From: Tuwongella immobilis
GTDB lineage: Bacteria > Planctomycetota > Planctomycetia > Gemmatales > Gemmataceae
Direction of reading: 5' to 3'
Assembly (NCBI RefSeq): GCF_901538355.1
Contig: NZ_LR593887.1
Coordinates: 3,386,920-3,450,919 of the forward strand
Length of the DNA: 64,000 nt
This document shows, in pieces, positions 43,593 through 46,626 of the stretch (positions are counted from its first letter, which is position 1; the number at the start of each line of letters is the position of its first letter). Position numbers and translations under genes: made by a program. The notes below the pieces were generated by a model. That model was not told the DNA's origin. It did not search any database and saw only the letters and a program-made list of their open reading frames with translations.

Positions 43593-44600
43593 ATGAATCC
43601 GACGTTGATGGTAGAGAATGCTGTGCCCGTGATGCTCACCAAAACCCTGTTTGACCCGATCCGCTCGGAACTGGATCAAGTCGAGCAAGTGCTGGCATCG
43701 ACGCTCTCGCCCTATCGACGCCGCATCTCGGATCTGATGAATCATCTCAAGCACTTCAAGGGCAAGCGGTTACGTCCGGTGTTGGTCATTCTGGCCGCGA
43801 AAGCGTGCGGTCGTGTCGTCTCCAGCCACTTCACGCTGGCGGCGGTGATCGAGATGATTCACACGGCCACACTGGTACATGATGATGTGTTGGACGAAGC
43901 GAGCATTCGCCGTCATGTGGATACGGTCAATGCCCGCTGGGGCAACAAGACCTCGATTCTCTTGGGCGATCTGCTGTTCACCCACGCATTCCATTTGAGC
44001 GCAACATCAGGTGATGCCCGGATTTGCGAACGAATTGGCGAAGCCACCAACCGCGTCTGCGCTGGGGAACTGTTCCAACTGACGGAACACGGCAATCTGC
44101 ATCTGACCGAGGATGCGTACTTCGAGATGATCGACGGGAAAACCGCCGCGCTCACCGAAGTCGCCTGCCGAATCGGAGCGATGCTCGCCGGTGCCAACGA
44201 TCATGTCTGCGAATCGCTGGCGATCTTCGGCCAAAAACTGGGTCTGGCGTTCCAAGTCGCGGATGATCTGCTCGATCTGATGGGCGATGAAACGAAGACC
44301 GGCAAGACCCTGGGCACCGATCTCGAACAACAGAAGATGACGCTGCCACTGATTCATTTGCTGGAAGTGGTGGACGGTGCAGAGGCAGATTCGCTGCGAG
44401 ACGCCATGAGGCACCCCACGGAAGCGAATATTCAACGCATCTTGACCGCGTTGCGTGTGCACGGTTCGCTGGAATATGCCCAGCGTCGTGCGGATGAGTT
44501 GATTGCGGAAGGTCGAGCCGCGTTGCAGTGTCTGCCAAGCTCGACAGCCAAAACAATGTTGGAACAATTGGGAACCTGGGCAGTTCGTCGGCAAAGTTAA
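43593..44600 (+). CDS. Polyprenyl (octa/hepta-prenyl) diphosphate synthase
   Basis: This 335-residue trans-polyprenyl synthase adds isopentenyl units to make the side chain of quinones. The two Asp-rich motifs are DDVLD (residues 97-101) and DDLLD (224-228), and GKRLRP, the substrate-binding loop, precedes the first. The chain length cannot be read with confidence. GGGAG lies 7 nt before ATG 43593; a GTG at 43548 would add 15 residues. A terminator follows. Confidence 0.92.
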   Translation: MNPTLMVENAVPVMLTKTLFDPIRSELDQVEQVLASTLSPYRRRISDLMNHLKHFKGKRLRPVLVILAAKACGRVVSSHFTLAAVIEMIHTATLVHDDVLDEASIRRHVDTVNARWGNKTSILLGDLLFTHAFHLSATSGDARICERIGEATNRVCAGELFQLTEHGNLHLTEDAYFEMIDGKTAALTEVACRIGAMLAGANDHVCESLAIFGQKLGLAFQVADDLLDLMGDETKTGKTLGTDLEQQKMTLPLIHLLEVVDGAEADSLRDAMRHPTEANIQRILTALRVHGSLEYAQRRADELIAEGRAALQCLPSSTAKTMLEQLGTWAVRRQS

Positions 44601-44634
44601 CGCAAATTCGCAGGCTCTCCCGTTGAGCAATCTG

Positions 44635-44678
44635 AACCGCAATGATTGGCCGAAATGAGCCAGTCATTGCGGTTTTTT
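44635..44678 (+). terminator. Intrinsic terminator upstream of the chaperonin operon
   Basis: AACCGCAATGA (44635-44645) pairs with TCATTGCGGTT (44664-44674), and an inner TGGC (44647-44650) pairs with GCCA (44659-44662). A run of T follows (44673-44678). It ends the polyprenyl synthase transcript and isolates the groEL promoter. Confidence 0.85.
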
Positions 44679-44695
44679 CGTTCCTGTCAAGTCGG

Positions 44696-44713
44696 CTGTC
44701 AGAAGCGGGACAG
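44696..44713. promoter_or_regulatory. Inverted repeat, candidate activator site for the groEL promoter
   Basis: CTGTC-N8-GACAG (44696-44713), followed by CTGCCAG repeated twice about 10 bp apart (44718-44734), lies 103-120 nt upstream of the -24/-12 element. That is a typical distance for a sigma-54 enhancer-binding activator. The role is inferred. Confidence 0.3.
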
Positions 44714-44816
44714 AGTCTGCCAGTTCCTGCCAGAGTGACAGCATCTCTGGGGAGAAGAGGAGAATCGAATTTCGCAAGTGCTTGCAATCCAATCACTTAG
44801 GAACTCTTTTTCGGGC

Positions 44817-44832
44817 TGGCACGCGGATTGCA
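44817..44832 (+). promoter_or_regulatory. Perfect sigma-54 (-24/-12) promoter consensus upstream of groEL1
   Basis: TGGCAC-N5-TTGCA matches the sigma-54 consensus at all 11 fixed positions, with the -24 GG and -12 GC at the correct spacing. The predicted start lies near 44843, giving a leader of about 80 nt. No CIRCE-type TTAGCACTC/GAGTGCTAA repeat was found in the region. Confidence 0.6.
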
Positions 44833-44925
44833 TCATTGATTGGGCAGACTTGCAGAATCCGCCTGATCCAACCGATAGGGTTCGATCGGCCGGGTTGATG
44901 GGACACCTGGAAGGAGATTGACGGA

Positions 44926-46626
<1,701 letters not shown>

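Follow-up and report, generated by a model that had tools for sequence, protein, structure and literature searches.

What switches on a chaperonin operon that is preceded by a sigma-54-like promoter? Bacterial heat-shock control is commonly described in terms of a heat-shock sigma factor together with repressors such as HrcA. The window analysed here, the whole 64,000-nucleotide stretch of DNA, contains the genes groEL1-groES-groEL2-dnaJ-grpE in this order on the + strand: groEL1 (Cpn60, 566 aa, PF00118, 44926-46626), groES (Cpn10, PF00166, 46659-46967), groEL2 (Cpn60, PF00118, 46983-48611), dnaJ (PF00226/PF00684/PF01556, 48736-49875) and grpE (PF01025, 49890-50462). All of them lie 3' of TGGCACGCGGATTGCA (TGGCACG-N4-TTGCA, 44817-44832, + strand), a -24/-12 element with a predicted transcription start at about 44843. 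The gene upstream, polyprenyl synthetase-like, ends in an intrinsic terminator on the + strand (44634-44675, 17-bp stem, T-run). The original prediction had described the region as isolated by a strong terminator; the hairpin is real (-28.4 kcal/mol, z -6.9) and isolates the groE transcription unit from its upstream neighbour.

TGGCACGCGGATTGCA is the sole perfect match to TGGCACG-N4-TTGCW in the 64-kb window, where 0.02 are expected from dinucleotide shuffles, and 93 nt separate its end from the groEL1 ATG (44926). The perfect consensus, its distance from groEL1 and a chance rate of a few hundredths per window had all been predicted and were found as described. The element has the GG-N10-GC of the -24/-12 positions within TGGCAYR-N4-TTGCW, and the genome encodes rpoN (PF04552, E 1.9e-60), 13 strong enhancer-binding proteins of the AAA+ sigma-54 activator type and, as described below, an upstream activator site (UAS). 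Across the genome (6.69 Mb), perfect -24/-12 matches number five, against one with the reversed pattern; a perfect match alone is thus weak evidence at genome scale. The case for a predicted sigma-54 promoter at groEL1 is made by conservation in relatives and not by the perfection of the match.

To assess this conservation we took 80 GroEL1 relatives from a public genome collection and examined the upstream DNA of the loci for which it was long enough, 80 when the window itself is counted. The closest relatives belong to Gemmataceae and other Planctomycetia, which marks the window as planctomycete DNA. NGGCAYR-N4-TTGCW occurred at most 200 nt upstream of groEL in 63 of the 80 loci (0.02 expected, mononucleotide shuffles), a count to be read with the kinship of the loci in mind, since they are not independent events and the near-zero flanks serve as the control. 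When 71 non-redundant promoters were lined up by their -24 boxes, the information content was about 2 bits at GG, A and TTGC and about 0 at neighbouring positions, the former values being partly by construction because the core pattern used as anchor already sets some of the letters. The 63/80 count and the UAS counts given below are free of this effect. Thus, the flanks have diverged and the -24/-12 element has not. With rpoN present and the element kept at the same place in relatives, the sigma-54 reading of the site that had been proposed is supported. In the same genome, other near-perfect -24/-12 sites, without a UAS, stand before genes that by eye resemble guaA (L023) and genes for a CobA-like methyltransferase (L022), prepilin-type proteins (L114, L130) and a response regulator (L126). 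The nearest GroEL1 relative (L027, 83% identity) carries the planctomycete promoter and stems from a record titled as a Bacteroidales MAG (JAIXLE010000074.1), which is probably a misnamed or contaminated bin.

An unbiased count of dyads upstream of the -24 box yielded TGCC-N5-GGCA and its relatives, summarised as CTGYCA-N3-TGRCAG. In the window this enhancer is CTGCCAGAGTGACAG (44727-44741, + strand), at a distance of 90 nt from the TGG in the -24 box. It was found with at least 11 of 12 matching positions in 68 of 78 groEL promoters, versus 0.2 in shuffles; with a threshold of at least 10 of 12, it was present in 76 of these 78 planctomycete promoters, and its distances were phased. In 67 of the 71 non-redundant promoters the distance from UAS to TGG fell into four classes: 88-93 nt (55 promoters), 79-82 nt (4), 101-105 nt (4) and 111-113 nt (4). 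Such steps of about one helical turn would keep the UAS on one helix face, as for a looping activator that faces the polymerase. The original prediction had taken the inverted repeat at 44696-44713 for the enhancer. This repeat, CTGTC-N8-GACAG, does exist, but it is not conserved, and we rejected it as the enhancer in favour of the conserved dyad at 44727-44741. Its arms are weaker versions of the CTGCCAGAGTGACAG half-site and belong to a series of auxiliary half-sites (CTGTCA, CTGTCA, GGGACAG and CTGCCA at 44684, 44696, 44707 and 44717, spanning 44684-44722, + strand) that follow one another in steps of 10-12 bp and are not conserved as a dyad. Overall, the switch before groEL1 is very probably a true sigma-54 promoter that has an enhancer of its own.

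Perfect copies of the UAS occur at three places in the 6.69 Mb: at groEL1, at the gene of the activator candidate described below and in one other intergenic region. At locus L131 (G000 C1:573922), an AT-rich intergenic region contains the perfect symmetric UAS CTGCCAATATGGCAG but no -24/-12 site. A third, isolated groEL (C1:1923292) has no UAS, and its best sigma-54-like site (11/12) lies 440 nt upstream.

We then asked where the combination occurs elsewhere, using a blind whole-genome search for a UAS and a -24/-12 element at the right distance, with the reversed pattern as control. Composite matches were obtained in 48 of 148 genomes of the class and, with a slightly looser pattern, in 34 of 236 genomes of the phylum; the reversed control gave 0 in both searches. 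Among 58 inspected matches, 57 were clearly located before groEL, groES, dnaK, hsp20 or Clp N-terminal (clpB-type) genes, figures that cover the fetched matches and in which a sample of the downstream genes was confirmed by Pfam and the others were recognised from their N-terminal sequence. The remaining match lay at a short contig end where the downstream gene was not clear. In the genome of the window, the start of dnaK is preceded at 115 nt by a -24/-12 site, and a UAS-like dyad lies 124 nt further up from the -24 box. The predicted sigma-54 control is not specific to groEL, as the same predicted promoter is found at dnaK, hsp20, groES and clpB-type genes. Since the same switch precedes heat-shock genes across Planctomycetota, it probably defines a phylum-wide sigma-54 heat-shock regulon.

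Expression data exist for Rhodopirellula baltica, in which RB8966-RB8974 (Cpn60, Cpn10, GroEL, DnaJ, GrpE), dnaK, clpB and hsp20 are heat-induced by a regulator that was unknown, and for which the authors proposed a significantly different response cascade (PMC2754498). Compared by gene list, the predicted sigma-54/UAS regulon fits this heat-induced set and, if true, would explain why the heat-shock regulator of R. baltica was not apparent. The rpoN mRNA of R. baltica did not change on heat shock (PMC2754498), which speaks against sigma-54 control. Activator-controlled promoters need no rise in rpoN, though.

HrcA and CIRCE were searched for as well. No hrcA gene was found in 27 genomes by a search that was positive in 7 of 14 control genomes. 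Neither the window nor the groEL upstream regions contain a CIRCE element, the best groEL upstream region still having 6 mismatches in 18 positions. With neither the gene nor the inverted repeat found in these searches, HrcA/CIRCE control of groE was rejected. Sigma-54 control of a chaperonin operon had been called unusual in the original prediction; this is true of bacteria generally, but in Planctomycetota such control seems to be the rule. A sigma-70 promoter upstream of groEL1 was likewise rejected, as a consensus scan of 44600-44960 found no sigma-70-like promoter, with the proviso that planctomycete promoters may deviate from the consensus.

Sigma-54 promoters are silent without their activator. 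In Planctopirus limnophila three GroELs are essential (PMC10632474), so basal expression is needed, and a strictly activator-dependent promoter would be insufficient unless its activator keeps some activity at all times. Both points speak for two promoters, one of the sigma-70 type for essential basal chaperonin and the sigma-54 promoter for stress induction, an arrangement compatible with our main explanation. It has to contend with the empty scan, which carries the same proviso, and with the terminator at 44634-44675, which blocks read-through from upstream; we consider it conceivable, though we lean against it.

Sigma-54 control calls for an activator, and one candidate stands out. It is an NtrC-type response regulator (L007, G000 C1:1496524-1498080) with the receiver (PF00072), sigma-54 AAA+ (PF00158) and Fis-type helix-turn-helix (HTH, PF02954) domains of this class. 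An orthologue turned up in each of the 43 genomes of the class covered by the search. We built a tree of enhancer-binding proteins, 184 in total, drawn from 19 genomes, namely this one and 18 more, ten of them from deep branches; the 18 added genomes all carry the composite promoter, and every genome tested has the candidate. Its clade (support 0.985) contains exactly one member in each of the 19 genomes, while the next widest single-copy clades span 10 genomes. Within the clade, the recognition helix GIGERTLYRKI hardly varies (one member is truncated). The GAFTGA loop reads GAYTGG in this genome and GAFTGA or GSFTGA in most orthologues, with the threonine retained. Gemmatales orthologues have an extra C-terminal helix-turn-helix-like segment.

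A perfect UAS is located slightly more than 100 bp upstream of the candidate's coding start. Within 400 bp upstream, 4 of 9 genes of the candidate's clade had a UAS, whereas about 95 genes for other activators had none. The candidate's own gene was preceded by it in just 4 of the 30 orthologues looked at first and in none of ten deep-lineage ones, which counts against the candidate. We therefore rejected general UAS-based autoregulation of the activator on the 4/30 count and kept the contrast with the other activator genes as support. In the activator upstream region (L132, 1501-1530), the UAS lies near a TATAAT, and a weak -35 (CTGTCA, 17-nt spacer) falls inside it; autorepression of the activator gene through this overlap is possible. 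A partner kinase was also considered: a histidine-kinase-like gene, recognised by motif, is located directly upstream of the activator at only 7 of 30 loci, and there is none in this genome. Some of the orthologues in G282, G268, G296 and G344 seem to lose the receiver phospho-acceptor region, with AAA+ and HTH domains kept where assembled. With this region lost in some deep lineages, phosphorylation cannot be the universal signal.

Several independent lines thus lead to one protein, and the candidate at C1:1496524-1498080 most likely binds the groE UAS. Promoter and UAS might also be real and the UAS be bound by one or more other enhancer-binding proteins, for example the orthologues of L005 or L010. 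Each of the nine Planctomycetia genomes likewise has a single copy of both, and most orthologues of the L007 gene have not kept its upstream UAS. The L005 and L010 clades are missing, however, from most of the ten deep-lineage genomes that have the UAS and sigma-54 heat-shock promoters, and among about 95 activator genes outside the L007 clade not one had a UAS upstream. Binding by another protein is therefore unlikely, and we retain L007 as the candidate activator.

Between UAS and -24 box we found a third conserved element, the imperfect inverted repeat CGCAAGTG...CACTTAGG (44773-44800, + strand, consensus CGYAAGT-N12-ACTTRCG). It is centred about 30 nt before the TGG, and A-40 and T-19 each occur in 58 of 71 groEL promoters. 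With a matrix built from the groEL promoters, 15 of 22 other promoters of the regulon, none of them of groEL, gave a match at p<0.05, and the element is common to groEL, dnaK, hsp20 and clpB-type promoters (44773-44800 in the window; L154-L307). By its core, CAA-N4-TTR, and its location it resembles a DNA-bending site, though it might instead be the operator of a repressor. If the latter, heat might be sensed by a heat-labile repressor at 44773-44800, and the enhancer-binding protein would be constitutively active. The near-symmetric repeat and its occurrence at all four kinds of promoters agree with an operator, but the core between UAS and -24 equally fits an IHF/HU-type bending site and HrcA is absent, so that we regard heat sensing through such a repressor as improbable. 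Elsewhere in the genome, a single-domain response regulator gene (L110, G000 C1:29138, - strand) has a -24/-12 element, the UAS-like dyad CTGCCAACTCGGCAG and a third-element-like repeat upstream, and is possibly an extra member of the regulon. Finally, that the match at 44817-44832 is a chance or constraint artefact without promoter function could appeal to the mild genome-wide excess of perfect matches over the reversed pattern, but is already refuted by the comparative data, that is, by an element conserved amid diverged flanks, a UAS co-conserved at phased distances, and composite matches restricted to heat-shock genes with an empty reversed control.

From the promoter elements with their conservation and spacing, their restriction to heat-shock genes, the absence of HrcA and the single-copy activator candidate, we infer how the operon would be switched on. 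RNA polymerase with sigma-54 would transcribe groEL1-groES-groEL2-dnaJ-grpE from 44817-44832. Under protein-folding stress, the NtrC-type regulator most likely binds CTGCCAGAGTGACAG; it would then loop the DNA, perhaps aided by a bending protein at 44773-44800, and spend ATP to open the sigma-54 closed complex. We assign a probability of roughly 0.78 to this reading, in which sigma-54 transcribes the groE operon from this site, one conserved NtrC-type activator acts at the UAS and the regulon is phylum-wide. On genomic evidence it is also fairly likely that heat shock in Planctomycetota as a whole (groE, dnaK, dnaJ-grpE, clpB, hsp20) relies on sigma-54 and one ancient NtrC-type activator with a CTGCCA-N3-TGGCAG enhancer, replacing sigma-32 and HrcA, of which HrcA was covered by the gene search.

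Parts of this picture have precedents. Studholme and Dixon reportedly dealt with sigma-54 activators of Pirellula in 2004, and an earlier link to chaperones there is possible; in the literature that was searched, neither the enhancer nor the architecture nor the candidate activator came up. A survey that predicts sigma-54 promoters at chaperone genes of Planctomycetia and Bacteroidota reports that, in Planctomycetia, such promoters are statistically enriched at the GroEL, GroES, GrpE, DnaJ, DnaK and IbpA orthologous groups (PLoS One 2025, PMC12316311). The same survey, likewise a work of prediction, calls the specificity of enhancer-binding proteins unavailable for all organisms, and its main text makes no mention of UAS, CIRCE or HrcA (PMC12316311). 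What is new here beyond the sigma-54 promoter itself is its assignment to heat shock throughout the phylum, together with an enhancer that is now defined and a candidate for the activator.

In Bradyrhizobium japonicum, NifA acts with RpoN on groESL3. This operon is among the known RpoN-dependent genes (PMC4842269) and, like groE here, is a chaperonin operon behind a -24/-12 promoter. In contrast to the general heat-shock set found here, it is one specialised nitrogen-fixation paralogue, and its UAS and activator differ. With AtoC/ZraR-like NtrC-type proteins the candidate shares the receiver, the AAA+ domain with a GAFTGA-like loop and the Fis-type HTH, but it differs in its predicted protein-folding regulon and in a receiver that is degenerate in some lineages. 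Myxococcus xanthus HsfA is an NtrC-like regulator of the heat-shock gene lonD. Both HsfA and the candidate are NtrC-like and assigned to heat shock, yet HsfA belongs to a different phylum and has a different target. HrcA/CIRCE and sigma-32 control serve the same target genes as the switch described here, where CIRCE and HrcA were not found. Planctomycetota seem to have based the control of heat shock on sigma-54 with a single conserved activator and not on the usual regulators. If true, this would be an independent solution in which ATP-driven promoter opening is the control step for chaperones, Clp-type ATPases and small heat-shock proteins.
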